Shown in pieces: positions 2,571 to 30,660 of a DNA stretch of 63,444 bases. The position numbers and the translations under genes were made by a program. This stretch comes from Thermoplasmata archaeon (GTDB lineage Archaea; Thermoplasmatota; Thermoplasmata; Thermoplasmatales; Thermoplasmataceae), in contig JAKAAY010000005.1 in the NCBI GenBank assembly GCA_021802055.1, positions 15,419-78,862 on the forward strand. Direction: 5' to 3'. The notes under the pieces are model-generated. The model worked only from the letters and a program-made list of their open reading frames with translations, was not told the origin of the DNA and ran no database searches. Each line of letters opens with the position of its first letter. Position 1 is the stretch's first letter.

Positions 2571-5367
2571 GTACGTAATCGCCGCCCAGAGGTATCATCC
2601 CGCCATCATTGTACGGTTTGGTACCATTGTAGTTCCACCAGTAATTCCCGCCCTGATAGGACGTGCCAATGATGCTGCCAGATAGTGTGTATCCGTCAAA
2701 GGTATGAGCATTGCTCGCACTCTGGTCTGTTATGTTCCAACTTTCCATCAACGGGTATGGTGAAATGGATGCTGAGTAAATGGATGCTGAGTTCGGGTTA
2801 AATGTAACAGCAGTATAGGAAATCCCGGCTCCAAAGAAGTTATTGTAGATCGTATTTCCAGGACTGCCTATGAGAACACCGTACGTAGGCGTAATGCAAG
2901 ATATGTTGCCGGAAATAATATTCCCCCACACATAATTCGTGCTGCCATTAAGGATCACAATGCCATCCGAAACATTCTTGAGAGTGTTGGACGCTATGAG
3001 TGTGTGATTGGATTCGAAGTCCAGGATGCCGAAGAATGAGGATTGTGTGGGCGGCGAAGCTGGATTAGGAATGAAGGATAAATGGTTGGACACAACGGTT
3101 GAGTTGGATGATTGAAATAAATAAACACCATACATGAAACCTCCATTGTTGCACATAACGTTGTTAAAGACCGAAATGTGAGGCGATGCTATTATTTCCA
3201 TTCCGAATAAAAACGCTTTTACTGCCTTGAAATCGTTCCCTCTGACGGAGATGTTAGAAGAATATTGGATTACGACCCCAAACACGAAATAACCCGTTGA
3301 AAAAGCATTGTCGGAGATTGTTGAATGCGTGGTATTGTATAAACACAGTGCGGTGAACGCTGACTGAGAAGAAAAGTTGAAGGTGTTATTTCCTACCTTG
3401 GCTCCGGTGCTGCCTGACAGTACAAGTTCCGCAGAGTAAAAAGTATTATGGATTACTTCATAGTTTGAAGAAGCCGCAAATGTTACGGATCCCATAATAG
3501 CACTATTGCTGACATTGACATTGGAATCACTTAAGAATAGCAGAGGAAGATGGACATTGAAAGACTGCCCATACGAAGTGCTGCCGGATGCATTGAATTG
3601 TTCCATGTTGTTAACATCGACATATGCGCTGGAATCGGTAATCAAAATTCCTGGGAACTCCGGGAAGAGATAGTCGTTGACCTTTGCAAAAATAGAACTT
3701 ATGTCTTTCGGCCCAGTGTTGAACAGAACGTAAGGATTTGCGGACGAGCCTGTGCCTGATTTTGAAATGTTTCCAAGTTGCGCCTCAGACCTTGCAACTA
3801 GGGGAGTGTAAACGCCATTCACGGTATCTGGGGAAAGTGTGATCACTGAGTTTGTGGAGAGGGTAAATGTGCTGTTTCCATACTCGCTCATTAACGCCTC
3901 AGCTACGTATGGCCCTGACGGAAGCGCAAACGAAAATGATCCCGAGAGTGAGGTTGGTGTCCACGCAGCAGTGGCGTTGTCAATCTTGCTTCCGTTGTTG
4001 ACAAAGAGGAGCGCATTTGAGGGTGAAATGGTGCCCGAATAAGTCTTCATCGATGTAACAGACGAAACATTCCACATCCCGTATAGCAGTGAAGGACCTG
4101 CGTTCAGTATGGCCTTTGAGTTTGACCATGACACAGCAACACCGTCAGATGATTCACCGGTGTCCATCCCAAAATCGTATGCCGACCTTATGTTTGAATA
4201 TGCGTCGGTTGTCTTGTTGTAATATTGGAGACGAAAAGTCCCGTTGAGTGTATATACGTTGGCTCCGCTTCCCCCGCCCGGACCTCCTATTATGAGTTCA
4301 GCGTCGTTCGGGAGGTTGTTCAATGGATTAGCGATCGTTCCACTTACCACGTAATCCGGAGCTCTTGCAGAAAATCCCGATGGCTGACCATAAGTCGAAT
4401 TGAAAATTACCTCATCATAGGATGAGGATGTGGTCACGCCGCCGGAAGATATTGAGTAGTTGAAGAACACCGCCGATCTGCCCGCAATAACTGTGGAATT
4501 GAGATAGAGAGTGACACTGAACGGATAAGAGACCGTAAGGGTGGGACCAAGAGCGTAATAAAATCCACCCGTACCTGTAGTAATCACGCCACCAGGTCCG
4601 TGACTATATATGGAATTTTCAGTAAATGATTGTCCTGTAAAGTTCCAGATGTTGTCGATAAAGCAGAGCTGGTGGGTTCTTGTGGAGTAAGAAATCACGT
4701 TCTGTGTCCAGAAATCATATTTGGAAGCGCCGAACAGCGTGACATTGTTCAGGACAGCATTCAGCTGGATCGACACATTGGATGGAGTCGCGGTGTTAGG
4801 AGCGATCGAACTAAAACTATTTGCAGTGAATGTTCCTTCGAAGCTCGATGTGTTATAGGTGTAGGGAGTCAAAGTTCCAGAAACATTGTCAACGCCATGG
4901 TCTGATACTCCCATGGATGAGGGACCCACAGGGATATAGGAGGAATTGGTAAGGTTGTTGAACATGGAGCCGGCGTTTAGGTTGGGGAGATAGATATCCT
5001 TCATCGAGATGTTATGCTCTTTTGCATTTTGCATTATACAGTCATAGTACAATGTTTGATTTGTCGTGGTTGAACCTAGTACGGTAGAGGGGTTATACCA
5101 TGGCGTTACTGGGACACCCTTGTTTAGACCTCTGAATCGTAACGGTATGTTTACCCCGTGGTTTCCAGGTACAGAATTCGGTTGACGTGCGGCGGTGGAT
5201 TTCTCTGTGTTTCCTGCCGAGACGTTAATGGCAGTGGCACTATTATCCCCTGACTTTGAGGGATTGGAGTTCGCGAAAGCGTTAGGCATCATGATCATCA
5301 GTCCGGACGCAATCATCAGGAAAACGACTATTATAGAGAGCAGCTTTGGGCCAGCGGTCTTATACAT
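1..5367 (-). CDS. Giant secreted thermopsin-like protein with beta-helix and repeat array (partial)
   Basis: The minus strand is open from an ATG at 5367 to the left edge, giving at least 1789 residues with no stop. Residues 1-31 form a signal peptide (hydrophobic run, ending near ANAFA). Roughly residues 65-405 resemble thermopsin, the acid endopeptidase family A5: a PMG-like GVSDHGVD stretch, FWTQNVISYS and GGPGGGSG are all visible. About residues 600-850 show N/S-rich parallel beta-helix (NosD-like) turns. From about residue 930 there are ten complete and one cut repeat of about 80 residues. The many Asn-X-Ser/Thr sites fit a glycosylated surface protein. A TATA box sits 26 bases upstream, so the start is well supported. 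Role is inferred: exoprotease, adhesin or cell-envelope protein. The C-terminus and any anchor lie outside the window. Confidence 0.85.
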   Translation of the reverse strand, partial: MYKTAGPKLLSIIVVFLMIASGLMIMMPNAFANSNPSKSGDNSATAINVSAGNTEKSTAARQPNSVPGNHGVNIPLRFRGLNKGVPVTPWYNPSTVLGSTTTNQTLYYDCIMQNAKEHNISMKDIYLPNLNAGSMFNNLTNSSYIPVGPSSMGVSDHGVDNVSGTLTPYTYNTSSFEGTFTANSFSSIAPNTATPSNVSIQLNAVLNNVTLFGASKYDFWTQNVISYSTRTHQLCFIDNIWNFTGQSFTENSIYSHGPGGVITTGTGGFYYALGPTLTVSYPFSVTLYLNSTVIAGRSAVFFNYSISSGGVTTSSSYDEVIFNSTYGQPSGFSARAPDYVVSGTIANPLNNLPNDAELIIGGPGGGSGANVYTLNGTFRLQYYNKTTDAYSNIRSAYDFGMDTGESSDGVAVSWSNSKAILNAGPSLLYGMWNVSSVTSMKTYSGTISPSNALLFVNNGSKIDNATAAWTPTSLSGSFSFALPSGPYVAEALMSEYGNSTFTLSTNSVITLSPDTVNGVYTPLVARSEAQLGNISKSGTGSSANPYVLFNTGPKDISSIFAKVNDYLFPEFPGILITDSSAYVDVNNMEQFNASGSTSYGQSFNVHLPLLFLSDSNVNVSNSAIMGSVTFAASSNYEVIHNTFYSAELVLSGSTGAKVGNNTFNFSSQSAFTALCLYNTTHSTISDNAFSTGYFVFGVVIQYSSNISVRGNDFKAVKAFLFGMEIIASPHISVFNNVMCNNGGFMYGVYLFQSSNSTVVSNHLSFIPNPASPPTQSSFFGILDFESNHTLIASNTLKNVSDGIVILNGSTNYVWGNIISGNISCITPTYGVLIGSPGNTIYNNFFGAGISYTAVTFNPNSASIYSASISPYPLMESWNITDQSASNAHTFDGYTLSGSIIGTSYQGGNYWWNYNGTKPYNDGGMIPLGGDYVPLVSNVVTFSETGLPVNHEWNVTLNGSSTSGSRGSTVVFNLVNGTYSFRISSKGFVASPREGMVSVTGSMTVSLVFKKGFAVNFTESGFPNGGYNYWFMTLNGTKKYSNSSVIQFYELNGTLQFSTGPVYSNYSVEYFPQTQSGSVTVSGFNQVVPIKFEKGTQITFFAVNLTVGAQWSVSLSNGQTFNTTSNIICFYEPNGTYQYSVTSAEASMHPVVNTGILIASGNSIQQLVYFTGQPIYKVTFAESGLPAGSGWYLSARGNTNGYIQWDNFTSSISMVDWLINGSYSYSANSSNNLYAALGSFSVNGAAITVTITFNKAYQVTFSQTGLPAGDEWYVCIFNGTTGAFLLSNSSVGPSLMFSLMNGSYIYQINAPGTGRQAVPSSATFTINGAGATFGIQFKKAYHVTFSQTGLPAGDGWYVYIFNESTTTYVVSNNSFGTYLMLDLANGSYSYEVFSYNSSWHPSPSAGTFTVTGSPVSIPVTFSQQLYRVSFVESKLPAGTLWYVNLSNGLSNSSTSTTITFNLVNGSYTYFIASSNKNWGASPSTGPFTVNGSPLSISTTFSETKYTVTFSESGLPSGTVWYVNLSNGASGSSSSGFLTFSLVNGSYTYYVSSSNKLYAPLSYSGSLDVNGSAVQISITFSLVEYHITFHENGLPPGVTWYVYVTNSTGHVFSSSSNTNGTTLLLINGTYTYTFASANKDYYNHTIGTMVFSGGTPSVVSVKFIPYVSTVTFTESGLPSGTAWYVNLTNDTGYVFNGHSTTSTIVFNLVNGTYTFENSTADKVYAPSSYSGTLTVSGSSVTLPTVTFTPQTFSVTFTESGLASGTWYVNISGSSKSAAAGSAIIYTLSNGT

Positions 5368-5387
5368 CGTGACTTTGACCGTTTGCG

Positions 5388-5398
5388 TATATAAATAT
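5388..5398 (-). promoter_or_regulatory. TATA box of the giant thermopsin-like gene
   Basis: The sequence TATATAAATAT is centred 26 bases upstream of the ATG at 5367. This is the standard archaeal spacing from TATA box to transcription start, so the message is probably leaderless. Confidence 0.7.
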
Positions 5399-5399
5399 G

Positions 5400-6026
5400 T
5401 ACTCTCTCAGTTTTTGGAACTTTTTACGATTTGAAGACAGATAGTTATAAGGAGTTTGTAAATGGGAGAGGGATAGATGGGAAATTTTTTGCACTTTCGT
5501 GAAACTGCGTAACGCGATGGCTGCCAGGCATGGAATCGTCTCAGCGCATAATATTATGAACCGGATTTGCAGATGGTTCGTTCTATCGCGTCTGGGGGCT
5601 GAAATATGGGCAAATAAATGGAAATAAACCTTCATCAAGGCCTTCTCATAAAGGCTGAGACACAATTCAGTACAGGCAGGAACGAAGGCAATGGGATTTT
5701 CAATCCCACTCTCCGGTCCCATGCCAGATGCAGAAGATAGCCTGGAAATGTAAAGGCAGAATGACACAGTGAAAAAAGTGTTCATACATTCAGAGTCGAA
5801 CATGAAACGACTTTGCGCAGGAGAGGAAAGAGAATAAAAAGGGAAAAGATGTTACTATCACTTTTCAGATGCCCGATAATGATAATCATGTCCTCCAGGC
5901 GGGACTATCTTGCTCGGAAGTGGAAATTACATCGGTGATAAGGGAGGCTGTAAATATAAATGGTTCACATTCGCTGGTAGGGCTGATAAAATGGTTGGAA
6001 GTGCTTGCCGGAAGTACGTTGAGTGA
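5400..6026. other. Long intergenic region
   Basis: About 630 bases separate the giant gene from the regulator at 6027. Seen here are a perfect 7-base inverted repeat with a 3-base loop at 5692-5708 (TGGGATT-TTC-AATCCCA) and an AT-rich TATA-like stretch near 5951-5961 that could serve the regulator, leaving a leader of about 40 bases. A 36-codon reading frame (5517-5627) and a 64-codon one (5869-6063) occur but have no recognisable product or start signal. No clear gene is seen. Confidence 0.5.
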
Positions 6027-7139
6027 ATGGAACCAGTGCCGAGGTGCCAAAAACAGAGATTAACGCTGGCCCTACATCAACAACTTTATGTGCGTTTTTG
6101 TTTATATGCCCCGTTGGATACTGACCTCGTCATCGACATAATAAGACACCTGCAATGGCCAGGCAATGATTCACTTGAATCATGGCCAGAAGGGGACGTG
6201 AAAAGACCCACTTACTATTGGATTTATCAGAGGATACGCGAAGAGCGGCAAGGTGCGATAAGTGATGGTATTCAGATTAACGTTCCATCCAAGAATCGTG
6301 TCCTGAAATACTTTAAACTCGTTGAAAATTCCTTTGTCCCAAGATTCATAGTGGATCCTTCAGTCTTTTCTCATTCCATGGCTTCTGTCATTTATAGGGA
6401 TGATCCTCTCATGCGGGATGATAAATTCATAGAACTCAGTAGAATTCCAAATGTTGAACTGGTCCAGCGGGGGTTGGGGTTAGGACCTATGGGATTGATT
6501 CCTGTGATATCTTTCAATATTCTTTATGAGAGAGAAAGTGCCCTCAACGATACGCTTGCCAGACTTAATGAAATAAATGATTCTTTCAGTGAAATTTATC
6601 GCGGAAGGTCTTTTATTTTCCCTCCAAAATCTGACACTGAATACCGTAATTTTGGGAACATGAGCAGGTACCGAAAGGCCATAATGAGAAATATCCTGAA
6701 AGAACTCGTCAGGGACCCACTCATTCCTCTCAATAATCTTTCAACAAAAACCGGTATAGGGAGGGATAGGCTGTACAGGGAGTATGAATCTCTTGCCCGA
6801 TCAGGGCTGTTCAAGATCGAGTTTAGCGTGAGAAATCCCATTGTGGGAGACATATTGCTGCTTCAGATGGGCTTTTCAGTAGAGAATGGGCGTAAGAGGG
6901 ACTTGGAGCGTAACCTCCGCGAACTCCCTGTCTTCAGGGAGAGACATTTATTGACTCGGTGGAGTTTCGATAACGTTCTTTACGTTATTTCCTGGACCAG
7001 GGACTATGCAGATGTCCTTTCCTTATATCTTCAGTTGTACGGATACCTGGAGGGCAATGTGCCCCTTATGTTTGTATGGCAACCAAGAACTTATCTTAAC
7101 CGCGATGCATGGATAAGAATGATAGATTTTCAGGAATAG
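6027..7139 (+). CDS. Putative duplicated winged-helix (Lrp/AsnC-like) regulator
   Basis: A 370-residue protein that appears to be an internal duplication. Residues 31-100 and 213-265 each look like a helix-turn-helix unit; the second is the clearer (RKAIMRNIL, then LSTKTGIGRDRLYREYESL). Each is followed by a beta-alpha-beta region of about 100 residues resembling the effector part of Lrp/AsnC proteins. No enzyme motif or membrane segment is seen. Tandem regulators of this size occur in Thermoplasmata, but the ligand and targets are unknown. The ATG at 6027 directly abuts the stop of an 11-codon frame starting at 5991 (TGAATG), so the true start could lie somewhat downstream. The family call is a judgement from fold-like pattern, not a strong signature match. 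Confidence 0.5.
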   Translation: MEPVPRCQKQRLTLALHQQLYVRFCLYAPLDTDLVIDIIRHLQWPGNDSLESWPEGDVKRPTYYWIYQRIREERQGAISDGIQINVPSKNRVLKYFKLVENSFVPRFIVDPSVFSHSMASVIYRDDPLMRDDKFIELSRIPNVELVQRGLGLGPMGLIPVISFNILYERESALNDTLARLNEINDSFSEIYRGRSFIFPPKSDTEYRNFGNMSRYRKAIMRNILKELVRDPLIPLNNLSTKTGIGRDRLYREYESLARSGLFKIEFSVRNPIVGDILLLQMGFSVENGRKRDLERNLRELPVFRERHLLTRWSFDNVLYVISWTRDYADVLSLYLQLYGYLEGNVPLMFVWQPRTYLNRDAWIRMIDFQE

Positions 7140-18605: not shown

Positions 18606-18896
18606 ATGTTTGATTCGCCTACCGACTGGCTTATCATAATTGTCGTAGTGCTGGTCCTGTTTGGCGGTGCAAAGAAGATTCCGGAATTTGCCCGGAGCCT
18701 TGGTAAGGCAACTGGCGAGTTCAGCAGGGGAAAGATGGAGATTGAAAAAGAGATCAGGACCGCTGCTGCAGCACCCGCGGCGGCCGCAGCTTCCCAGCCT
18801 TCAGTGAGGGAAGCCGCCAGGAATCTTGGTATAGAGACCACAAACAAGACGGACGACGAACTTAAGATAGAGATGTCGGAAAAGCTGAAGAGCTGA
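18606..18896 (+). CDS. tatA: Twin-arginine translocase subunit TatA/TatE
   Basis: A 96-residue protein with the TatA plan: a short N-terminal membrane helix (WLIIIVVVLVLFGGAKKIPEF), the FG hinge, and an amphipathic helix (ARSLGKATGEFSRG). An Ala/Pro-rich linker (about residues 58-68) leads to a charged tail. TatA rings form the pore that exports folded proteins carrying an RR signal peptide, energised by proton motive force. tatC follows after three bases, and no separate tatB is seen, which is usual in archaea. Confidence 0.95.
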   Translation: MFDSPTDWLIIIVVVLVLFGGAKKIPEFARSLGKATGEFSRGKMEIEKEIRTAAAAPAAAAASQPSVREAARNLGIETTNKTDDELKIEMSEKLKS

Positions 18897-18899
18897 TGA

Positions 18900-19715
18900 A
18901 TGCTAGAGGAACTGGTAAACAATCCTGAATTTATCAGGCATCTTGAGGAACTGAGGTACAGGGTAATCAGGGTACTCTACTATTTCATATTTTTCTTCAT
19001 TTTCTTCCTTGATTTCCGCATAAACTTCACAGCATTATCGGGGGTGGTGATACCTTACCCCTACCCCGATTTTTTTGACAATTCAGGAGCGCAGTTCCTG
19101 CAGTTGCTGGAAGCGCATGTGCTGCCTCACAACGCTGTTCTCATAAATGTGAAGCCGACGGACAGCATAGTGGCTGATTTCTATGTGTGCATGTTCCTGT
19201 CCCTTATCTTTTCCATGCCGGCCATCGCCTATCACGCCTGGAGATTCATAGCACCCGGACTCAAGCCAAAGGAGACCATGACCATAAGGTACATTGTGCT
19301 CCCCGCCACGGTCCTGTTCCTGCTGGGTTCATTCATGGGCATCTGGATCGTTGCGCCTGAACTTTTCAGGATATTCAACGATTTCAGTATAGGGCTTGGT
19401 GCCCTTGACAGCATGACACCGCTTTCATTCATCTCATTTCTCCTGGTCTACACCCTCGCATTCGGATTGTCCTTCGAAGTTCCGGTTTTCATGGTGGCTC
19501 TCACCCGGTTCGGCGTTGTGTCCTCGGATTACTGGTCCAAAAACTGGCGATATGCCGTCGTGGCTTCACTGGTATTCGGCATGATATTTTCTCCCGGGGT
19601 TACAGGATTCACCATGGTGGTCATGGCAGCACCCATGATATGCCTCTATTTCGCGGGCATTTACTTTGCAAGGAGAACGGAGAAAAGCACCTCAGTGGTT
19701 GCCTCTCCCGATTGA
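18900..19715 (+). CDS. tatC: Twin-arginine translocase subunit TatC
   Basis: A 271-residue polytopic membrane protein, the receptor for twin-arginine signal peptides. The N-terminal cytoplasmic signature is FIRHLEELRYRVIRVL, matching the conserved HLxELRxR. Six hydrophobic segments are visible (about residues 22-42, 93-113, 128-152, 172-195, 210-228 and 232-250). The conserved F-P region in the periplasmic loop is replaced by FSMPAIAYHAWRFIAPGL, typical of TatC. It is the second gene of the tat operon; its last 24 bases overlap the convergent crotonase gene. Confidence 0.95.
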   Translation: MLEELVNNPEFIRHLEELRYRVIRVLYYFIFFFIFFLDFRINFTALSGVVIPYPYPDFFDNSGAQFLQLLEAHVLPHNAVLINVKPTDSIVADFYVCMFLSLIFSMPAIAYHAWRFIAPGLKPKETMTIRYIVLPATVLFLLGSFMGIWIVAPELFRIFNDFSIGLGALDSMTPLSFISFLLVYTLAFGLSFEVPVFMVALTRFGVVSSDYWSKNWRYAVVASLVFGMIFSPGVTGFTMVVMAAPMICLYFAGIYFARRTEKSTSVVASPD

Positions 19716-20432
19716 CGCCCTGTGCTCCTCTAACTGTTTCAGCCTTATTCTTCCCGGGTCATATAGCAACGGAAGCATGGCATGGTAGTTCCCCAGCCCT
19801 GCCGTGGCAATGCCCTTGTACCTGTGGTTCAGGTAGCTGTTTATGTCCGGGATAAGGCGGGATATAGAATCAGAGTCATCGACAACGCCAGATATGATGC
19901 CCAGCCGCCTTGCCATCTCCTCCCCGAAGAGGTCTCCCGACAGTATGGTTTTCTGCAGCTGGGTCCCGTATATCTTCCTCGTGGGGTCCAGGGCAAGAAA
20001 GGGCATTCCGAACAGTATGTCAGGGAAGCCAAACAAAGTTCCCCTGGTGCAGTAGGTATAATCAGAGAGCAGCGCTATTTCAAGACCGATGCCCAGACAC
20101 GTTCCTGATATCATAGTGACGAACAGCTCTCTGGAGGTCGAGATGAGATTCCCAAGTGTGGACGTTATGGATATGATCTCGCGGAAGTAGTCCTGTTCCC
20201 GTATTCTCTGGCAGGAGGCATCGAACCCCATGGTGAAGTTATCCCCGTCTGTGGACCTAATCACAGTTACCCCTTCTTCCTGGAGAGAGAGGACACTCAC
20301 GATCGCCTGGACCAGATCCTCAAGCATCTCGATGTCCATGACAGGATAATTCAAGCTGTTTATCCTGATATTCCTCACTTTCCCGTCGATCTCAAGGAAA
20401 ACCTTGGAGCGGTTATTAACGCCCGCCTGCAT
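19692..20432 (-). CDS. Divergent enoyl-CoA hydratase/isomerase (crotonase) family protein
   Basis: A 246-residue crotonase-fold protein. GTCLGIGLEIALLSDY matches the region holding the first catalytic glutamate (Glu118). The second position carries Asp138 (FPDILFG) in place of the usual Glu. The first oxyanion loop reads DNFTMGFDAS where hydratases have an AGAD motif, so it is a divergent member whose reaction cannot be assigned: hydratase, isomerase or thioesterase are all possible. The ATG at 20432 is chosen over one at 20450 because a CTTTTAAGC element lies 26 bases upstream of it. The 3' end overlaps tatC on the opposite strand. Confidence 0.7.
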   Translation of the reverse strand: MQAGVNNRSKVFLEIDGKVRNIRINSLNYPVMDIEMLEDLVQAIVSVLSLQEEGVTVIRSTDGDNFTMGFDASCQRIREQDYFREIISITSTLGNLISTSRELFVTMISGTCLGIGLEIALLSDYTYCTRGTLFGFPDILFGMPFLALDPTRKIYGTQLQKTILSGDLFGEEMARRLGIISGVVDDSDSISRLIPDINSYLNHRYKGIATAGLGNYHAMLPLLYDPGRIRLKQLEEHRASIGRGNH

Positions 20433-20531
20433 TCGTGCTAATTGTGACATGGCTTAAAAGCGGTCGCATGTCCATGCTGGGGGTCCGGTGCAAAAGAGCG
20501 AAATTCGGGTTGACCGGAGACCATACGGCCA

Positions 20532-20780
20532 TCAGTACATGGTTAGGTTGTATTTTCTGTCTGCAGAACGGTAGCTTTCAAGGTCCCTTATCCCCAGAGC
20601 GCCGGAAAGTCTTGCCATCTCATCGGATACAGAACTGTCGTAAAGTTCCCGTCCCAGCACCAGTCTCCTCTTTTCCGCACTGAACATGACAATCTCGCCG
20701 TATTTCTTCAGGCAGTGGATCGCCTCGGCTGCATCTTCTTCCCCGTCTATGTTTTCAAAGCATTTTCTGAAGTCTGTCAT
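20532..20780 (-). CDS. Unknown protein at the end of the nuo operon (82 aa)
   Basis: An 82-residue, mostly helical, charged protein with no membrane segment and no cysteine cluster (two Cys, in RKCFEN and IHCLKK). It begins with a four-base ATGA overlap with the preceding 120-residue gene, which itself overlaps nuoN, so all three are tightly coupled. It is the last gene of the complex I operon. No family was recognised. The coupling suggests an accessory or assembly role for complex I; this is inference from position. Confidence 0.65.
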   Translation of the reverse strand: MTDFRKCFENIDGEEDAAEAIHCLKKYGEIVMFSAEKRRLVLGRELYDSSVSDEMARLSGALGIRDLESYRSADRKYNLTMY

Positions 20781-21139
20781 TGATCTCCGCACCTCTTCTG
20801 GTCAAAAACCGGATAGTCAACGTCGTACCTGTCCACGGAATACCGCACGTAAAATGACAGGTTCTTCAGGTAGCTTTCAACGTCCTCCACGTTGCCAAAC
20901 ATCCCGGAATACTTCGGCTCAAGGAACTTTGGAATCATCGTATCGCCAGTTATCTTCCCCTTCACCAGGTCAAGCAGTAACTTGTATGCGTCCTGAAAAT
21001 CCACATAAATGGGTTTCTTTGTTGCCATGTGAAGGAACCTGGCTCTTTTCATTCTCTTTTCAAGCCACCCGACTGCCAGTTTCACGTCTCCCATGAGCAT
21101 GAATGTCCTGACCTGCTCAATATCAAGTTCTATGTTCAT
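20777..21139 (-). CDS. Unknown protein in the nuo operon (120 aa)
   Basis: A 120-residue soluble protein, helical in the first half (DIEQVRTFMLMGDVKLAVGWLEKRMKRARF in two blocks) and rich in aromatic and charged residues in the second (LKNLSFYVRYSVDRYDVDYP). There is no membrane helix or Fe-S motif. It overlaps nuoN at its start by ATGA and the 82-residue gene at its end, so it should be made in step with complex I. No known Nuo, Fpo or Fqo subunit was recognised in it. Candidate accessory subunit, assembly factor or electron-input adaptor. Confidence 0.7.
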   Translation of the reverse strand: MNIELDIEQVRTFMLMGDVKLAVGWLEKRMKRARFLHMATKKPIYVDFQDAYKLLLDLVKGKITGDTMIPKFLEPKYSGMFGNVEDVESYLKNLSFYVRYSVDRYDVDYPVFDQKRCGDQ

Positions 21140-22602
21140 CCAGTCACCCCGAACAGGCTAGTTGCGTATCCGTGCAGTAGTGGAAACAGGGGGAAAAAGA
21201 AGAAGATAACTACAACCACGACCGCAGAGATCAATACTGTAGCTGAAGCTGCCCTTGACCTGGTCATAAGCACCTGACTCTCCGGCTTCCAGTACATGTA
21301 CATGATTACCCTGAAGTAGTAAAACACGGAGATTGCGCTGTTCAGTATGGCGATGATGGCCAGCCACCATAGCTTTACGTCAACCAGATACAGGAACATG
21401 TAGAACTTACCGGTGAATCCTCCGGTAAAGGGAATGCCGGCCAGTGCCAGGAGTAGTATGGAGAGTCCCATGGCGAGGGCAGGAGATTTTCTTGCCAGAC
21501 CTGAAATGTCTGAAAATTCCGGGCTTTCCTTGTCAACCGTGTTGAGGAAGACAAAGGCACCTCCCTTCATGAATATGTAAACCAGTGAGTACAGCATCGC
21601 GGCTGCCACAGCGTTTATTGCGATGAAGCTGTAATTCTGGCCTGACCACATGGCATAGGAGGTGATGGAGAAGACAAGGATCAGGTAACCTGCCTGGGCA
21701 ATGCTGGAATACGCAAACAGCTTCTTGACGTTGGTTGTTGAAAGTGCCGAAATATTCCCATAGGTCATGGTGAACACCGCCAGCAGCGTGAACAGGAGGA
21801 AGACATCCTCGCCCATTGACGCAAACCCGATAATGAACACCTTGATCATGATCATGAATGCTACGAGCTTGCTTCCCGTGGAGAGGAAGGCTGATACTGA
21901 ATTCTCTGAGCCGTAGTATGTATCGATGGCCCACTGGTGCATGGGAAATATTGCCACCTTGAACCCAAAGCCTATGGTGAGGAACAGCAACGCAATGAGC
22001 AGGGCGGGTTTTGAGGCCACTGCCATCGCCGGGCCAAGCTGGAACGTGCCCATTGCCTGGTAGAAGAAGGCCAGCCCAAATATGATGAATGACGTTGAAA
22101 CTACGCCCGTGAAGAAGTACTTTGTTGAAGCCTCGAGCGTCCTCCTGGTCTTGTGAAACGCTGCCAGTACGTAGGTGCCTATGCTTACCGCCTCGAATGA
22201 AATGAACAGGACTATGAGGTTCATGGTGAAGGCCGCGACCACCATGCCTGTGGTCACAAAGAGAAGAAGGGCATAGAATATGTCCCCCTTTGCAGATATG
22301 TTCTTCAGCGACGGGAGCGTTATGAAAAGTGAGGAAATCAGGAAAAGGATGGCAAAGTAGAGGCCAAACTGGTTGAAGGTGAAACTATCACTAAGGACAT
22401 TGTAAGTGTTCTGCGGGATTACCAGCAACAGAATGGCAGCAAGAACCAGTGAACCAAAGGCGATCCCGGCGTAGGCCCTCTTGCTGGAGGTTACCAGCCC
22501 AAGTCCCAGGATCACAAATCCTGCAATTCCGAGGACTATGAGCGGATAGAGATATTGCAGCGATTGAATGCCTGTAACGGTTGATATTGATTCTGTGATC
22601 AT
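21136..22602 (-). CDS. nuoN: Complex I subunit N
   Basis: A 488-residue antiporter-like membrane subunit with about fourteen hydrophobic helices. It carries the conserved proton-channel features of the family: a glutamate in the fifth-helix region (FISFEAVSIGTYVLAAF) and lysines in GFKVAIFPMHQWAIDTYYGS. It pumps protons as part of the membrane arm. The start overlaps the nuoM stop by four bases, and the stop overlaps the next unknown gene likewise. Confidence 0.92.
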   Translation of the reverse strand: MITESISTVTGIQSLQYLYPLIVLGIAGFVILGLGLVTSSKRAYAGIAFGSLVLAAILLLVIPQNTYNVLSDSFTFNQFGLYFAILFLISSLFITLPSLKNISAKGDIFYALLLFVTTGMVVAAFTMNLIVLFISFEAVSIGTYVLAAFHKTRRTLEASTKYFFTGVVSTSFIIFGLAFFYQAMGTFQLGPAMAVASKPALLIALLFLTIGFGFKVAIFPMHQWAIDTYYGSENSVSAFLSTGSKLVAFMIMIKVFIIGFASMGEDVFLLFTLLAVFTMTYGNISALSTTNVKKLFAYSSIAQAGYLILVFSITSYAMWSGQNYSFIAINAVAAAMLYSLVYIFMKGGAFVFLNTVDKESPEFSDISGLARKSPALAMGLSILLLALAGIPFTGGFTGKFYMFLYLVDVKLWWLAIIAILNSAISVFYYFRVIMYMYWKPESQVLMTRSRAASATVLISAVVVVVIFFFFPLFPLLHGYATSLFGVTG

Positions 22603-24071
22603 GCTATCCCTCCCAGGTATCCTGTGAGAAGCGGGAATACTATCCTAGGAAACAGGCCTATTACCAGGATCGAGATCAGCATGAAGATCATTGCTGCCGA
22701 CTCTGAACGGGAAAGGTCCCTGACCTGGCCAAGATTTTCGTTGTAAGGGCCGTAGAGGGCTTTCTGTGCGGCCCAGATATGATAAGACGCCGTAATGATC
22801 ATTGAGAAAATTACCAGGTATATCAGTGGTCCGAGAATGCCATAGGAGCCAGCGATGATGGAGAACTCAGCTACAAAGCCCGCAAGTCCCGGCAGACCAA
22901 GGGATGCAAGAAGCCCCCCAAGGAAGAGAGTGGCCATCACGGGAGATTCCCTGTAGATTCCGCCCAGGCCATAGAAGGTATCGTGACCCGTGTGGGTCTT
23001 GATGTAGTAGAGGAGTGAGAACAGGAAGGCCACTATGAGCCCGTGCGCGAATATCTGGAACATCCCTCCGGCAAGATCGATGATCCCGTTGTTTCCCGTT
23101 CCAAGTATCCCGCTCCCGAAGGCAATGCTGACAAATCCCATTGAGGCTGCACTGGCATATGCCATCATCCGCTTGATGTTGCTCTGGAACATGGCTGTGA
23201 AGGAGAAATATATGAGGCTCAGGATCCCAAGTGCAATGAGGAGCCACAGGAAGAATGATGGGATCTGCGAGTAGAGAGGATACAGGATCCCAAACAGGCC
23301 GAAACCTCCCATCACTGAAAGTGCACCCGCGAGGATCACAGTAACGGGATAAGGGGCCTCTTCATATGAATCTGGCAGCCAGGAATGCAAGGGAAATGTT
23401 GGAAGCTTCACCAGGAATCCGATGAGGAAGCCCGTGAGAATGAATACCTTGTAAAAGTAAGGGATGGTTGCGAAGAAAGGTGTTGACAGCAGGTCAGCGT
23501 TCTGCATGGTAAGAATGCCGAACTCCGAGTAATAGTACGAATAGAGTGTGAAGATGGAGAGCAATATGAATACGGAGCCTATATGCGTGTACACAAGGAA
23601 CTTCAGGGAAACTGAATCCTTCCTCGGTCCGCCATAGAGACCTATGAGGAAGTAAACCGGAATAAGCACAACTTCCCAGAAAACATAGAAAAAGAACAGG
23701 TCTGTGGACATAAGGAGACCGAATATCCCCACTTCCGTAAGCAGGATGAGACCATAGTATACCGGGTCATCGCTGCGATCGGATATGAAGAGAGCTGCAA
23801 GGACAATAATGGAACCCAGGACCACCAGCAGATCCGTAAACCCGTTTATTCCCAGAGAGAAATAGAATCCGGTGTATGAGGAAAGTGTCAGGCTGAATGT
23901 CGAGATATATCCGCCATCGTAGCCCGGATAGAACCTGTATGCTGAATAAATGATCACAGCAGCAGCAATTGCCAGCGATGTCAGCCTGGCAAACTGGCGG
24001 GATCTTCCGCCTGTGAAGAAGGTGATCATGGAAGCTGCCACAAGCACTGCAAAGATATATTCGATAATCAC
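22599..24071 (-). CDS. nuoM: Complex I subunit M
   Basis: A 490-residue antiporter-like proton-pumping subunit with fourteen or so membrane helices. FFYVFWEVVLIPVYFLIGLYGG includes the conserved glutamate of helix 5, and GFLVKLPTFPLHSWLPDSYEEAP is the family signature containing the channel lysine and the HxWLPD motif. It overlaps nuoN at its 3' end by four bases and abuts nuoL directly at its 5' end. Confidence 0.95.
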   Translation of the reverse strand: MIIEYIFAVLVAASMITFFTGGRSRQFARLTSLAIAAAVIIYSAYRFYPGYDGGYISTFSLTLSSYTGFYFSLGINGFTDLLVVLGSIIVLAALFISDRSDDPVYYGLILLTEVGIFGLLMSTDLFFFYVFWEVVLIPVYFLIGLYGGPRKDSVSLKFLVYTHIGSVFILLSIFTLYSYYYSEFGILTMQNADLLSTPFFATIPYFYKVFILTGFLIGFLVKLPTFPLHSWLPDSYEEAPYPVTVILAGALSVMGGFGLFGILYPLYSQIPSFFLWLLIALGILSLIYFSFTAMFQSNIKRMMAYASAASMGFVSIAFGSGILGTGNNGIIDLAGGMFQIFAHGLIVAFLFSLLYYIKTHTGHDTFYGLGGIYRESPVMATLFLGGLLASLGLPGLAGFVAEFSIIAGSYGILGPLIYLVIFSMIITASYHIWAAQKALYGPYNENLGQVRDLSRSESAAMIFMLISILVIGLFPRIVFPLLTGYLGGIA

Positions 24072-25961
24072 TCACAACCCCCCCGCCAATTCAAGCACGA
24101 TAAATACTGCAGCGGCTGCGATGATGATGAGCAGGAAGTAGTTTTCCACCACACCGCTCTGAAGCTTCCGTAAGGCATTTCCGATCCTGAGGAAGGAACC
24201 TCCGAACCTCTCAACAGCCCCATTGTATCGGGATTCAGCGCCTGCAAAAGAAGAAGAGAGCGGCAGGATTGTCCCCTGTGCAATTGCATTTGTGAAGAGG
24301 CGGTCCAGGTAATACTTGTTGGCAAGCAGCCTGTACCCGGGAATCTTTTCCGGGTGAATACGGGTGAACCTGTCACCTGCATACAGGAAATATGTCACGG
24401 CCAGACCAATAAGCAGGAAAGCAATGCTCAACATCTCCGTGAAAGCAGGAATCGCGGGGACAGATGCGCCGGGTGAAACATAACCGTAGAAGCTTCCCTG
24501 GAATACTCCATACCCAAGAGAAAGGACGGCAAGTATTGCAAGCGGGATGAGCACTATCTTCTTTGGATCCTTTGCCTCTGAAGCCAGGTGGGATCTGGGC
24601 TTGCCCAGAGCAACCATGAAAAACATCCTGAATGTGTAAAGAACGGTGGCCAGCGCCCCAAACTGGAGAAAGAGCCATGGCAATGCCATTGCAAGGGTTC
24701 CGCTGCTCTGGTACATGGTATACGAAAGCCCTATGATGGTATCCTTGGAAAAGTACGCAGAGGTAAATGGAACTGCTGCGAGTGTGATTGATCCGATGAA
24801 CAGCAGGCTGACTGTATAAGGCATGCGCTTCCACAGTCCTCCCATTTGCCTTACATCCCTCAGGTCCATGAGGGCCAGGAGTATTGCACCTGCACTCATA
24901 AAGAGTAGTGCCTTGAAAAAGGCGTGAACCACAAGATGGTACATCGAATACGCAATGACGTCAGGCCCAAACATGCTGCCCAGGCCCAGTGCCGCAAGCA
25001 TGTAACCCAGCTGGCTGATGGTTGAATAAGCCAGGATGCGCTTTATGTCGTTTACCACAATACCGATGGTACCTGCAAATAGTGCCGTGAATGAACCTAT
25101 GAACAGTACAATGTACAGTGATACAGGATATGCTTCATAGAAAAGCGGATATACCCTTGCAACCAGGTAAATTCCTGCAGTGACCATAGTGGCTGCATGG
25201 ATCAGGGCTGAAACCGTTGTTGGACCCTCCATGGCATCCGGGATCCACACATGGAGCGGAAACTGTGAAGATTTTCCTATTGCACCGCCCAGAAATAGGA
25301 GGGAAACCAGGGTGAGGTTGTACTGCCCGATGAGTGAGGGGAGCCGGGACGCGTTGTTTACTATGAAGCTTATGCTCAGGGGGTCGCTGGAAACTGAAGA
25401 CATGCTGCTATATAATACGGCCAGGCCGATCAGGAAAAGAAGATCGCCGACCCTGGTCACTATGAATGCCTTCTTGGCGGCAGAAGCTGCGTTTGGCTTG
25501 AAGAACCAGAAACCTATCAGCAGGTATGAACAGAGGCCCACCAGTTCCCAGAACATGAAGAATTCCAGCAGGTTTGAAGCTTCCACCAGTCCCAGCATGC
25601 CTGAGGTGAAGAGTGCAGTTTCTGCAAAATAGGCGTGCCGGTTTGGATCGCCACCCATGTAATACAGGGCAAAGAGATGAATCATCAGGGACACTAAGGC
25701 GACCATGAGCAGCATCACGATGGCGAGGTGATCTACAAAAATCCCGTAATTGATGTCGTAGAACCAGTTATACTGGGACTCAACAGATGTGCTGGATGAG
25801 ATGTTCAGGTAAAGGAGAAAGGCCAGAACCAGGGAAAGGCCTATGGATGCCGAGGCAATGATGCCGGCAGCATTCCTGCTTTTCCTTCCTGCAACAAGTG
25901 CGATGGGAGAAGCAATGAGTGGGGACAGGAATATGCCCCACGCCTCAAGTTCGGTTATCAT
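24072..25961 (-). CDS. nuoL: Complex I subunit L
   Basis: A 629-residue antiporter-like subunit, the largest in the membrane arm. Signature blocks: FMFWELVGLCSYLLIGFWF with the helix-5 glutamate, IGKSSQFPLHVWIPDAMEGPT with the key lysine, and VSALIHAATMVTAGIYL. The long C-terminal helices (about 560-629) fit the lateral helix that ties the pumping modules together. Its start overlaps the nuoK stop by four bases. Confidence 0.95.
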   Translation of the reverse strand: MITELEAWGIFLSPLIASPIALVAGRKSRNAAGIIASASIGLSLVLAFLLYLNISSSTSVESQYNWFYDINYGIFVDHLAIVMLLMVALVSLMIHLFALYYMGGDPNRHAYFAETALFTSGMLGLVEASNLLEFFMFWELVGLCSYLLIGFWFFKPNAASAAKKAFIVTRVGDLLFLIGLAVLYSSMSSVSSDPLSISFIVNNASRLPSLIGQYNLTLVSLLFLGGAIGKSSQFPLHVWIPDAMEGPTTVSALIHAATMVTAGIYLVARVYPLFYEAYPVSLYIVLFIGSFTALFAGTIGIVVNDIKRILAYSTISQLGYMLAALGLGSMFGPDVIAYSMYHLVVHAFFKALLFMSAGAILLALMDLRDVRQMGGLWKRMPYTVSLLFIGSITLAAVPFTSAYFSKDTIIGLSYTMYQSSGTLAMALPWLFLQFGALATVLYTFRMFFMVALGKPRSHLASEAKDPKKIVLIPLAILAVLSLGYGVFQGSFYGYVSPGASVPAIPAFTEMLSIAFLLIGLAVTYFLYAGDRFTRIHPEKIPGYRLLANKYYLDRLFTNAIAQGTILPLSSSFAGAESRYNGAVERFGGSFLRIGNALRKLQSGVVENYFLLIIIAAAAVFIVLELAGGL

Positions 25962-26251
25962 TCCCTTATCTCCTTCAGCAGTGATATGCTGACACGCCCG
26001 AACTTGCGGAAGACCGCCACAAGAAGACTCACGCCTATGACGGATTCAACTGCTGCTATGGCTATGACAAAAAGCGCAAGGACGATAGGTTCCATGGAAT
26101 TGACTGCTGAGACGACGAGGGCGATCACAGCGGAGTTGATCATAATCTCCACAGAGATCAGCATCTTGATCCCCACGTTTGAGGTCATAACCCCGTAAAG
26201 GCCCACTGCGAACAGGAATAGCGCCACTGTATCTGCAATAAAGATGTCCAA
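25958..26251 (-). CDS. nuoK: Complex I subunit K
   Basis: A 97-residue membrane subunit with three helices. The second helix retains the conserved glutamate in LISVEIMINSAVIALV, and the third carries AIAAVESVIGVSLLVAVFR, with the second conserved glutamate. These residues form part of the proton path linking quinone reduction to pumping. It abuts the second nuoJ fragment. Confidence 0.92.
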   Translation of the reverse strand: MDIFIADTVALFLFAVGLYGVMTSNVGIKMLISVEIMINSAVIALVVSAVNSMEPIVLALFVIAIAAVESVIGVSLLVAVFRKFGRVSISLLKEIRE

Positions 26252-26470
26252 TTAATCCTCCCTCCCGGCAACGTAGAGCATACCAACTATACCCCCGACA
26301 AGGATGAGTGAGATCAGCTCAAACGGAATCAGGTAGATGCTGAACAGCTGGCTGGCGATGTCTGTGATGCTCTGATTCACATAGGTTGTGCTCCCCGAGA
26401 TTTGCAGCACCTGGTAGAGGATGGCAAGGAAAAAAATCGCAACCGCTATACCTGCTGCCCGTCTATTCAA
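26252..26470 (-). CDS. nuoJ: Complex I subunit J, C-terminal part
   Basis: A 72-residue two-helix protein corresponding to the second half of NuoJ: a first helix (AGIAVAIFFLAILYQVLQI), an outside loop, then LIPFELISLILVGGIVGMLYVAGRED, the typical NuoJ ending. The N-terminal half is a separate gene just upstream, overlapping by eight bases. A split J subunit (JN/JC) is also known from the methanogen Fpo complex, so this is likely functional rather than a frameshift: both parts have their own start codons. Confidence 0.85.
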   Translation of the reverse strand: MNRRAAGIAVAIFFLAILYQVLQISGSTTYVNQSITDIASQLFSIYLIPFELISLILVGGIVGMLYVAGRED

Positions 26471-26711
26471 CTTCCTTCCCCCCGGTAAGCATAAGCGTGA
26501 ATGCTATGAGTGTGACAACTGCCCCCACGTATACCAGCAACTCTATGGCACCCAGAAAATCAGCGCCCATGAAGATAAACAGCGATCCCACGCCAAACAG
26601 GAATATCATGAGATAGACGACCGAATGCACTATGTTCTTTTCCCTCACAGCCAGTATTGCCGTCACCATCATGATGATGGTGAATATGAGAAAGATGATG
26701 GTGAAGATCAT
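26463..26711 (-). CDS. nuoJ: Complex I subunit J, N-terminal part
   Basis: An 82-residue membrane protein with three helices matching the first half of NuoJ, including the conserved block HSVVYLMIFLFGVGSLFIFMGADFLGAIELLVYVGAV, which forms the pi-bulge helix region in complex I. It ends LTGGKEVE and overlaps the C-terminal J gene by eight bases in another frame. The start overlaps nuoI by four bases. Confidence 0.88.
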   Translation of the reverse strand: MIFTIIFLIFTIIMMVTAILAVREKNIVHSVVYLMIFLFGVGSLFIFMGADFLGAIELLVYVGAVVTLIAFTLMLTGGKEVE

Positions 26712-27154
26712 TTCTTCACCTTATCCTCATCCATTGCAAGCTCCTCCGGAGAGTATGTAAAATTATTCCTTGTCCTCGATGTTTCGAAGACATGGGTCAG
26801 GTATATTGCGTCTGTTGGGCAAATCTCTTCACAGTTCCTGCATACGGTACAGGTCCCGAAATTGACATCCGGGTATATCATGCGCTTGTTGCGCGGGTTT
26901 TCCCTGTGAACGTTCTGCATCTTGATGGACCCGTTGGGACATACCTGCTCGCAGAGCGTACATCCAACGCAATCGTCCAGCTTGAGGTAGATCCGGAAAC
27001 GGAATCTCTCCGGCAGATCGGGTTTCTCCTCAGGATATTTGAGCGTCACCGGTTTCTGGAAGAGATGCTTTCCAACCGTAGCCATGCCTGAGATCACTCC
27101 AACGAGGGGCACACGCCTCCTCGGTTCTTCCACTTCCTTGATTCCGATCGTCAT
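26708..27154 (-). CDS. nuoI: Complex I subunit I (2x[4Fe-4S] ferredoxin-like)
   Basis: A 148-residue iron-sulfur subunit. Two CxxCxxCxxxCP motifs bind clusters N6a and N6b: Cys62/65/68/72 in CVGCTLCEQVCP and Cys102/105/108/112 in CTVCRNCEEICP. It passes electrons from the input side to NuoB. With NuoE, F and G absent, it is a likely docking point for an alternative electron donor such as a ferredoxin or another flavoprotein (inference). It follows nuoH by one base. Confidence 0.95.
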   Translation of the reverse strand: MTIGIKEVEEPRRRVPLVGVISGMATVGKHLFQKPVTLKYPEEKPDLPERFRFRIYLKLDDCVGCTLCEQVCPNGSIKMQNVHRENPRNKRMIYPDVNFGTCTVCRNCEEICPTDAIYLTHVFETSRTRNNFTYSPEELAMDEDKVKK

Positions 27155-27155
27155 T

Positions 27156-28196
27156 TTACCACCCCAGCCCTAGCGTGAGGATTCCGCTGATGATCAGATT
27201 CGCAAAGGAGATGGGAAGCAGATACTTCCAGCCAAAGTTCACGAACTTGTCAATGCGAATCCTGGGCATTGACAGCCATACCGTGAAGGATATAAGGACA
27301 AGGATCATTGCCTTGATCACCAGCCAGATTACTCCGACGTCTGTGGAAAGGGGCCCGTTGTAACCAGACAGGTAAAGAAGGGATACAAGCATTGAACCCA
27401 GGAGTATTGATCCAAAGAGCCCGACATAGAACATCGCGAATCTCATGCCCGTGTATTCTGTTGAATATCCGGAAACCAGTTCACTGTCGCTTTCTCCCAT
27501 ATCAAATGGAGTATAGGAAGCCCTTGCGACCATTGCAGTGAAGAAGACGAATATGCCCAGAGGCTGGAGAACAGCATAGGGCAGGAATTGCGCAGAAACA
27601 ATGGAACTTATGCTGAGCGAGTCGGGAACTCTGGCAGAGGCCATCATGACGATGGCAAGGATGGATATCATCATTGGAACCTCGAAAGAAATGTCCTTGG
27701 CGATTGAACGGAGTGCACCTATGAGTGCATACTTGTTGTGGGAACTTACCCCTGCCAGAACCTCGCCGATGGGCATTATTGAAATTACTGCAAACACCAG
27801 GACCAGCGTCACTGCAGAGTTTGTGACAGTGAGTGATCCTATGCCTATCAATGAACCATAAGGCAGGATGGTGAAGGCGAGAAATAGCCCTACCATGACA
27901 ATCATCGGAGCAACCCTGTACGGAAGATCATCCCTCTCCTTCGGAAGAATTGATTCCTTTCCCACGAGTTTCAGGGCATCTGCTATGAGCTGCAGTGACC
28001 CGAACTTTCCGACCCTGTTTGGGCCGAGCCTCAGCTGGAGTCTTGCCATGAACTTCCTGAACAGGTATATCATGAATATGAGAAACAGCGAAATGACTAT
28101 GAGATAGAGCACGGTCTCAATGAGATAGCTGATTGCATAGCCTGGATAATGTCCAAGGAATGAAAAGATACCGTAGAGTGTCTGCAGGAGGCTCAT
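27156..28196 (-). CDS. nuoH: Complex I subunit H
   Basis: A 346-residue membrane subunit with about eight helices that forms the quinone entry site. Conserved blocks are RLGPNRVGKFGSLQLIADALKL near residue 55, SSHNKYALIGALRSIAKDISFEVPM in the middle (with the conserved E of loop regions) and ASYTPFDMGESDSELVSGYSTEYTGMRF, which is the quinone-chamber loop. Its start overlaps the nuoD stop by four bases. Confidence 0.95.
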   Translation of the reverse strand: MSLLQTLYGIFSFLGHYPGYAISYLIETVLYLIVISLFLIFMIYLFRKFMARLQLRLGPNRVGKFGSLQLIADALKLVGKESILPKERDDLPYRVAPMIVMVGLFLAFTILPYGSLIGIGSLTVTNSAVTLVLVFAVISIMPIGEVLAGVSSHNKYALIGALRSIAKDISFEVPMMISILAIVMMASARVPDSLSISSIVSAQFLPYAVLQPLGIFVFFTAMVARASYTPFDMGESDSELVSGYSTEYTGMRFAMFYVGLFGSILLGSMLVSLLYLSGYNGPLSTDVGVIWLVIKAMILVLISFTVWLSMPRIRIDKFVNFGWKYLLPISFANLIISGILTLGLGW

Positions 28197-29296
28197 CTGT
28201 CTATCTCCCCGAAAACCAGGTCAATGGAACCGGAAATGGATATGAGGTCCGCTATCATCTGATCCTTTGCGAGCACTGGCAGGATTGAGAGGTTCTTGAA
28301 CGCTGGGCTCCTGACATGTACCCTGTATGGCTTGACGCCACCGTCGCCCACAATATATACCCCGAACTCCCCCTTGCTTGACTCCGTCCTGGCATACACC
28401 TCTCCATCTCCCCTCAGTCGTATCATCAGCGGTTTCTTTGCCTTGGGGTTGAAAAATGGGCCTTCCGGTATCTTGTCGATAATCTGACCCAGTATCCTTA
28501 TGGATTGTCTCATCTCCTCGAACCTGACCAGAAATCTTGCCAGTGAATCTCCCTTTTTGGATACCGGGATGTCGAAATTGACCCTGTCATAAAGAAGGTA
28601 TGGCTCTGCCTTCCTCACGTCATATGGAACGCCGGATGCCCTGAGGATGGGCCCGGTGACTCCATACTGTATGGCAACCTCAGGGGACAGATATCCGATC
28701 CCCTTGGTCCTCTGGATGAAAACATCGTTCTTGGCGAACAGGTTGTATATCTCTTCAAGTTTCCTGGGGAATTCAGTGATAAATGCCTTTACGTGATCCA
28801 CGATCTCGGGCGTCAGGTCCTGGTAGACGCCGCCAATGCTGAAGTAGTTTGTCTCCTGCCTTGAACCACAGGCTTCAGTGAATATCCTGAGTATCTTCTC
28901 ACGCTGCACGAAGCAGTAGAAAAACGGCGTCAGCATTCCCAGGTCAAGCCCGAATGCCCCTGCCCACACAAGATGTGAAGCTATCCTTGATAGTTCGTTC
29001 ATGATAGTCCTGATATATATTGCCCTTTCAGGTGGAGGTATTCCAAGCAGTTTTTCAGCTGCCTCCAGATAACCTGCCTCCATATTCATGGAAGCGACAT
29101 AATCCATTCTGTCAAAGTATACGAGATTATCACAGTAATATGTCATCTCGCACAGTTTCTCCGCGTTCCTGTGAAGATAACCGATAACGGGTTCAACTTC
29201 CCTGATTATCTCCCCCTCAACTTTTACCTTCAGCCTGAGCACACCGTGCGTGGAGGGATGTTGTGGCCCGATGTTGAGTTGCATGAGTTCAGACAT
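28193..29296 (-). CDS. nuoD: Complex I subunit D (49-kDa homologue)
   Basis: A 367-residue subunit descended from the NiFe-hydrogenase large subunit. It opens with the quinone-site motif IGPQHPSTHGVLRL, where the conserved His and the later tyrosine line the quinone pocket, and includes the VEPVIGYLHRNAEK block. It lacks the hydrogenase CxxC metal ligands, as expected. Separate from nuoC, unlike the fused CD of E. coli. It follows nuoC by two bases. Confidence 0.95.
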   Translation of the reverse strand: MSELMQLNIGPQHPSTHGVLRLKVKVEGEIIREVEPVIGYLHRNAEKLCEMTYYCDNLVYFDRMDYVASMNMEAGYLEAAEKLLGIPPPERAIYIRTIMNELSRIASHLVWAGAFGLDLGMLTPFFYCFVQREKILRIFTEACGSRQETNYFSIGGVYQDLTPEIVDHVKAFITEFPRKLEEIYNLFAKNDVFIQRTKGIGYLSPEVAIQYGVTGPILRASGVPYDVRKAEPYLLYDRVNFDIPVSKKGDSLARFLVRFEEMRQSIRILGQIIDKIPEGPFFNPKAKKPLMIRLRGDGEVYARTESSKGEFGVYIVGDGGVKPYRVHVRSPAFKNLSILPVLAKDQMIADLISISGSIDLVFGEIDR

Positions 29297-29298
29297 TG

Positions 29299-29757
29299 TT
29301 ACCAGCCGTCTCCTGGATCAAAGGTGGCGTAGTCTTCCCCGTCCTCGTCCATGTTGATGTACTGCACATTGCTCAGGTCGTAGTCCTTCCTCAGCGGATG
29401 TCCCACCCACGATTCCGGCAGGAACATTCTCCTGAGGTTGGGATGTCCTTCGAACTTTATTCCCATCATGTCCCACTGTTCACGCTCGTCCCAGTCAGCG
29501 CTTCGCCAAAGTGACGATACACTGGGCACAGTGGAGTTGTTGGTAGTGGTCTTCACAACTATATACCTGTTCTGCTCAAGGGAATGCAGATGGTATACCA
29601 CCTCTATGTAATCTTTCCTGTCAACACCGGTTATGAGCGAGAGGTGGTCAAAACCTTCCTCCTTCCGCTCCCTCATGAACTCAAGGAGCTTCTCCCTGGG
29701 AACCTTGAATATCTGTCTCCCGGCCCTGTCCACCAGTTGCTGTGATTCCTCTGTCAT
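29299..29757 (-). CDS. nuoC: Complex I subunit C
   Basis: A 152-residue 30-kDa-type subunit. Visible signatures: HLSLITGVDRKDYIEVVYHL and, near the end, the family motif DWDEREQWDMMGIKFEGHPNLRRMFLPESWVGHPLRKDY in separate conserved blocks. It contacts NuoD and NuoB in the peripheral arm. Four bases separate it from nuoB. Confidence 0.93.
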   Translation of the reverse strand: MTEESQQLVDRAGRQIFKVPREKLLEFMRERKEEGFDHLSLITGVDRKDYIEVVYHLHSLEQNRYIVVKTTTNNSTVPSVSSLWRSADWDEREQWDMMGIKFEGHPNLRRMFLPESWVGHPLRKDYDLSNVQYINMDEDGEDYATFDPGDGW

Positions 29758-29761
29758 TGTA

Positions 29762-30226
29762 TCACCTGTCGGATTCGCCCCGGATCCGCTTCTGCAGTGT
29801 CATGATGCCGTAGATGAGTGCTTCTGGTGTCGGGGGACAGCCTGGGACGTAAACGTCCACGGGCACAACCCTGTCAACCCCAAGAACCACGGAATATCCC
29901 TTCACGTAGGGGCCGCCCTGAATGACGCATACTCCCATGGCTATGACGTACTTGGGGAAAGGCATTTCATCATAGAGTCTCTTGACCCTTGGTGCCATCT
30001 TCTTGGTCACGGTGCCCGCGACAATCATAAGATCCGATTGTCGTGGTGAATTCCTGAATATTTCGCTGCCAAACCTGGCAACGTCGTAATCTGCACCCTG
30101 CATTGCCATCATCTCGATGGCACAGCATGCAAGACCGAATGTGAGCGGCCACAGTGAGTTGCTCCTGCCCCACTCCATGGCGTTATCAAGTGTGGTGGTG
30201 ATGATTCCGAAATCTCCGTTCTTCAT
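29762..30226 (-). CDS. nuoB: Complex I subunit B (cluster N2)
   Basis: A 154-residue iron-sulfur subunit holding the terminal cluster N2. The four ligands are present: the tandem Cys34-Cys35 in [10 protein letters not shown], Cys100 in [11 protein letters not shown] and Cys130 in [11 protein letters not shown]. It delivers electrons to quinone at the NuoB-NuoD interface. The start overlaps the nuoA stop by four bases. Confidence 0.96.
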
Positions 30227-30660
30227 CTAATCCACCTCATATATCCCTCCTTGAACGCATAGAAGACAGCAAACATAGGCATGGAGAGGAATATGATTGT
30301 CTCAATGAAGGGGTATATTCCCAGAGAGTAGAAGTTATAGGACCATGCGAGCAGCAGGACCATGTCAACATCGAAAAGAACGAAAAGAAGTATCACGACG
30401 TAATACTGCAGGTTCACGAAGGTACCAAATTCACCCCTGGATTTCTCACCGCTCTCATACGGTTCCATGTATGAGGTGTCCTTCACGGGAGGGCTTGATT
30501 CCTCTGCCATCCCCCTGATGATGTCGGATGGCCTGAAACTCGGTTTTCTTCCAGGCGCGTATCTTGTCGCCTGTATTGACGGCAGTATGGAGAATAACCC
30601 TATCACCCCTAGCACCAGCAGGATAAGAACCAATGCAAGCACGATGTAGCCGTCATTCAT
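30223..30660 (-). CDS. nuoA: Complex I subunit A
   Basis: A 145-residue subunit with three membrane helices. The family motif [11 protein letters not shown] followed by [16 protein letters not shown] is clear. The loop between the first two helices is longer than in bacteria (about residues 30-75). It is the first gene of the operon, with a TATA box 24 bases upstream of the ATG. Confidence 0.93.

Follow-up and report, generated by a model that had tools for sequence, protein, structure and literature searches.

The window analyzed here, a 63-kb stretch of DNA that is part of a 1.48-Mb genome assembly, contains a complex I (nuo) operon on the minus strand. It runs from position 30660 to 20532 in the order nuoA-B-C-D-H-I-J-J-K-L-M-N-X-Y, where X and Y are two small genes following nuoN. 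The features of the operon are as follows.

30223 to 30660, minus strand: nuoA
29762 to 30226, minus strand: nuoB
29299 to 29757, minus strand: nuoC
28193 to 29296, minus strand: nuoD
27156 to 28196, minus strand: nuoH
26708 to 27154, minus strand: nuoI, with two 4Fe-4S motifs visible in its sequence
26252 to 26711, minus strand: nuoJ, as two overlapping genes (26463 to 26711 and 26252 to 26470)
25958 to 26251, minus strand: nuoK
24072 to 25961, minus strand: nuoL
22599 to 24071, minus strand: nuoM
21136 to 22602, minus strand: nuoN, 488 amino acids, above the cut-off of the NCBIfam NuoN equivalog
21136 to 21139, minus strand: ATGA shared by the nuoN stop and the X start
20777 to 21139, minus strand: X, 120 amino acids, 14.2 kDa, predicted to be soluble with six helices, with the conserved C-terminal tail RYxxxYPxxxxKRCxD
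20790 to 20795, minus strand: GAGGTG, a Shine-Dalgarno-like site for Y, inside the KRC codons of X and 9 bases before the Y start
20777 to 20780, minus strand: ATGA shared by the X stop and the Y start
20532 to 20780, minus strand: Y, 82 amino acids, 9.5 kDa, predicted to be soluble with a helix, a beta-hairpin and two helices, ending in NLTMY

The length of Y is counted from the ATG; a start at the in-frame GTG at 20792 would make it four residues longer. The nuoM/nuoN junction is a 4-base ATGA overlap like the nuoN/X and X/Y junctions, and the 4-base X/Y overlap was found in 52 of 59 named loci. These coordinates and overlaps agree with the preliminary description, which placed nuoN, X and Y in one operon with ATGA overlaps. 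Its statement that the complex lacks NuoE, NuoF and NuoG also held, as none of the three is encoded in the window's nuo operon.

Neither X nor Y had a credible match in Pfam or NCBIfam, including to any core NuoA-NuoN family. Comparison of 15 Y and 16 X homologs with Pfam gave scattered matches only, nearly all in single members. FpoO (PF10621) was considered as an identity for X and Y and rejected, since it was absent among the Pfam matches listed for these 31 family members up to E = 1; its Pfam profile also found no FpoO in the window's own genome. The earlier claim that neither small protein is a standard Nuo or Fpo subunit thus stands. Sequence and profile searches against the PDB returned nothing significant, with matches at chance level only, and the two proteins contain no homology to the NADH module (NuoE/F/G) and no Fe-S, FMN or NADH binding motifs. 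Single-chain AlphaFold2 models were built from 50-sequence alignments. The X model is all-helical (pLDDT 89.2, pTM 0.82), and the Y model consists of a helix, a beta-hairpin and two helices (pLDDT 89.2, pTM 0.74). Foldseek found no PDB match to either model at E ≤0.001 (best E 1.3 for X and 2.5 for Y), and none of the solved complex I accessory subunits in the PDB had the same fold. Sequence prediction revealed no transmembrane stretch in X or Y, and both are predicted to be soluble. X and Y are two protein families unmatched in current sequence and structure libraries, and we found no description of them in the open-access literature that our searches covered.

In the loci that the Y alignment retrieved, X was 22-65% and Y 37-76% identical to its counterpart in the window. 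The median dN/dS of close pairs was 0.10 for X and 0.06 for Y, while the nuo genes had values of 0.005-0.06, including 0.05-0.06 for nuoJ and 0.04 for nuoN. By this measure, X is evolving more rapidly than the core. Purifying selection acts on both X and Y, which, considering their conservation across loci and low dN/dS, are not chance ORFs.

We determined the distribution of X and Y by genome searches within the window's phylum; other archaeal phyla were covered by a contig scan with the Y pattern, which is insensitive to distant relatives. The Y-alignment scan of genome contigs yielded 61 loci with record titles all consistent with Thermoplasmata, including Ferroplasma acidarmanus, Acidiplasma aeolicum, Thermogymnomonas acidicola, Thermoplasma sp. 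and Cuniculiplasma sp. A genome scan with a single X sequence gave no match, although the Y alignment did succeed. Of 400 genomes of the class, 78 had X, every one of them in the window's order; Y was present in 92 of the order's 117 genomes. Among genomes covered by both searches, the X and Y sets were identical (78 genomes), and the two genes were adjacent on one strand in 77 of the 78. When the whole phylum was searched with a profile, Y was recovered from 40 genomes of the order, and genome G428 gave one marginal match inside a long frame (E 0.001).

All 59 named loci holding X had the order N-X-Y, and the order A-B-C-D-H-I-J-J-K-L-M-N-X-Y was kept in the named loci wherever the contig was long enough. 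The named loci outside the N-X-Y pattern were L126, whose contig begins inside Y, and L102, where nuoN is followed directly by Y. Y was missing from 25 genomes of the order, all of which either had no true NuoN or were cut by a contig edge. Twenty of them belong to families f2, f5 and f6, which had no NuoN match at E ≤1e-40; their NuoN-like matches had only ~21-31% identity and were taken to be hydrogenase- or Mrp-type paralogs. Y and a true NuoN were both absent from G360, G363 and G418, which are incomplete genomes (68-78% complete), while in G294 and G409 NuoN reaches the contig edge where X would begin. Aside from a rearrangement in genus g2, none of the order's genomes with a readable nuoN 3' flank was without X and Y, and searches of the phylum genomes and contigs found no X or Y homologs away from nuo genes. 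In 20 complex I loci from other Thermoplasmatota, no ORF behind nuoN matched the X or Y profile (best E 0.9 and 1.7); several of these loci carried instead genes that, by eye, look like polyprenyl-synthase and geranylgeranyl-reductase types.

X and Y therefore show the co-occurrence with and linkage to complex I genes expected of accessory subunits, and these comparative tests strongly favor a tie of both to complex I. Across genomes, X and Y are probably order-specific to Thermoplasmatales complex I, either as extra parts or as dedicated assemblers. The preliminary description had proposed two undescribed components tied to complex I, which is borne out by homologs that follow nuo genes and were found nowhere else. 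Its expectation that they always follow nuoN is correct for all 59 named X loci but fails in genus g2, where X follows nuoM and Y follows nuoN. In this genus (genome G024), the nuo operon is split over two contigs, as follows.

L127, 5350 to 9037: L-M-X, with X overlapping nuoM by ATGA
L128, 5202 to 11001: B-C-D-H-I-J-J-K-N-Y, with the examined stretch ending inside B and leaving A out of view

The N-Y junction of G024 recurs in L102. After the split, X and Y are each still beside complex I genes, but different ones. Because X and Y were kept with different nuo genes, this rearrangement is the strongest argument for a functional rather than a passive tie.

The region beyond Y contains an enoyl-CoA hydratase (ECH)-like gene (19692-20450, minus strand; Pfam ECH_1, E 9e-11), which starts 81 bases after Y, and tatA-tatC (18606-19715, plus strand), which is convergent with the end of the nuo operon. 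The ECH-like gene was near Y in 30 of 53 loci, mostly at 26-34% identity, indicating that it is fast-evolving yet often keeps its place. TatC was encoded within about 2.5 kb of Y in 41 of the 53. Such partial conservation would fit X and Y being passengers, kept beside nuoN by slow change of gene order. However, N-X-Y persists where the flanking order is broken (L093, L077, L084 and L100), X and Y stayed with nuo genes after the operon was split, and both are missing where complex I is missing. We therefore regard passengers as highly improbable.

The Shine-Dalgarno-like site for Y recurs at most coupled junctions. AGGTGY, spanning the RC codons, occurred in 61 of 68 coupled X/Y junctions. The tail arginine codon was AGG in 63 of the 68. 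In the rest of the operon AGG accounts for 52% of arginine codons, and the excess has a binomial P of about 5e-13 when relatedness is ignored. The codons are AGA TGC in L110 and L111, whose Y genes have a GGAGG of their own and begin 17-21 bases downstream of X, but KRC is kept. In G024, where no Y lies behind X, they are CGT GCA, i.e. KRA. KR is thus held at the protein level and the cysteine at least partly by the ribosome-binding site. The conservation of the X tail is thus explained in part by the Shine-Dalgarno site for Y that its KRC codons carry. A promoter and terminator scan of the region found no more than shuffles yield.

The C-terminus of Y, NLTMY, was present in every row of two Y alignments; a single f3 genome has NLTIY instead, and family f4 has NLTDY or NITDY. 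Conservation peaks at the C-terminal end of both proteins, the majority-residue share of the last six columns being 0.85 for X and 0.93 for Y, compared with 0.37 and 0.59 outside the last 18 columns. The tails are the low-confidence part of the AlphaFold2 models (pLDDT 55-57), as expected if they fold only on a partner.

We also considered the cysteines as ligands. The X tail cysteine is replaced by serine in L088, L091 and L112 and by alanine in G024, and the cysteines of the CxHC motif of Y are absent from several members. The KRCxD cysteine of X was rejected as a redox or metal ligand on account of these replacements and the double use of the KRC codons as a Shine-Dalgarno site, and CxHC of Y was rejected as a metal site, being not conserved. 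With cysteines that vary between members, X and Y lend no support to a role in metal binding or Fe-S redox chemistry.

X and Y combine a dedicated linkage to complex I, coupled-translation signals, purifying selection and conserved tails. We consider it likely that they are soluble accessory subunits specific to Thermoplasmatales complex I, bound through their tails, that stabilize or cap an enzyme without an NADH module. X and Y would be translated alongside the other subunits, with Y using a ribosome-binding site of its own that is embedded in the final codons of X. We infer that both would be physical members of the complex, docked on its cytoplasmic face with the conserved C-terminal tails inserted into it. 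Their most likely function there would be to stabilize the truncated enzyme or to close off the peripheral arm at the end that NuoEFG would occupy. A mirror-tree analysis gave weak residual correlations (0.2-0.3 only), X correlating with D and B and Y with N and H, and it offers little basis for placing either protein in the complex.

Dedicated assembly factors or chaperones, which would not be part of the mature enzyme, would produce an identical genomic pattern. X and Y resemble such factors in being small soluble proteins encoded by the operon's last genes, and their conserved tails might bind nascent subunits. Moreover, X comes after the large membrane subunit that closes its operon, which in G024 is nuoM, and its faster evolution relative to the core also fits. 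However, the coupled translation of Y suggests a fixed stoichiometry, and most known complex I assembly factors have their genes outside the structural operon, so that we hold assembly factors to be unlikely, if worth keeping in mind. We are more doubtful that X and Y are an electron-input adaptor replacing NuoEFG, by which ferredoxin or another soluble donor would dock at NuoI/NuoB. They would then form an input platform in place of the NADH module and select the electron donor of Thermoplasmatales complex I, which we think improbable. Such an adaptor would suit an operon without NuoEFG and two proteins confined to this lineage, and PMC5155288 reports NuoEF as absent from the Thermoplasmatales genomes then available, with an unknown electron source. 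Conversely, X and Y have no cofactor-binding motif, and their cysteines are replaced in several members. The 20 sampled complex I loci from other Thermoplasmatota have neither gene beside nuoN, so complex I of related lineages can do without them. The lack of any invariant cysteine makes a redox adaptor improbable; a passive docking platform for a donor is possible. Of the roles listed in the preliminary description (accessory subunits, assembly factors or an electron-input adaptor), the shared tie to complex I is upheld; a redox carrier is not, given the replaced cysteines and missing cofactor motif.

Small extra proteins are known from other relatives of complex I. FpoO (PF10621) of the Methanosarcina F420H2 dehydrogenase, whose gene lies at the end of the fpo operon, is likewise small and lineage-specific, an addition to an archaeal homolog of complex I. 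Thermus Nqo15 and Nqo16 and cyanobacterial NdhM-S are, as we propose for X and Y, small soluble extras on a conserved complex I core. They have no sequence match to X or Y, and no PDB match was found with Foldseek at E ≤0.001.

The core order, the split nuoJ and the absence of NuoEFG in the window are all shared with the 11-subunit archaeal complex I without an NADH module, NuoABCDHIJKLMN. PMC5155288 gives Cuniculiplasma complex I as nuoABCDHIJJKLMN without NuoE, F and G; the two overlapping nuoJ genes of the window (26252-26711, minus strand) match its JJ. The same paper reports NuoEF in no Thermoplasmatales genome then available and leaves the electron source open, and PMC3750248 describes the same absence in most acid-mine-drainage plasmas. 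In the passages of PMC5155288 and PMC3750248 on this enzyme, the NuoABCDHIJKLMN operons end at nuoN, with X and Y unmentioned. X and Y are universal where the operon is readable and order-specific; the published gene lists, as far as these texts give them, stop at nuoN. The two proteins are concrete candidates for what stabilizes complex I in Thermoplasmatales (Thermoplasma, Ferroplasma, Acidiplasma and Cuniculiplasma) or feeds it with electrons.

Other complex I-like genes occur in the window's genome on contig C35. A NuoF-like gene (Complex1_51K; L204, 6694-8232, minus strand) lies beside a formate-dehydrogenase-like gene (4010-6730, minus strand), far from the nuo operon, and a NuoF-like gene of this kind was present in 15 of 41 genomes of the family. 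A second membrane complex on the same contig (L205, 5602-12238, minus strand), with two antiporter-like proteins, a NuoD-like and a NuoB-like protein, resembles formate hydrogenlyase or group 4 hydrogenase.
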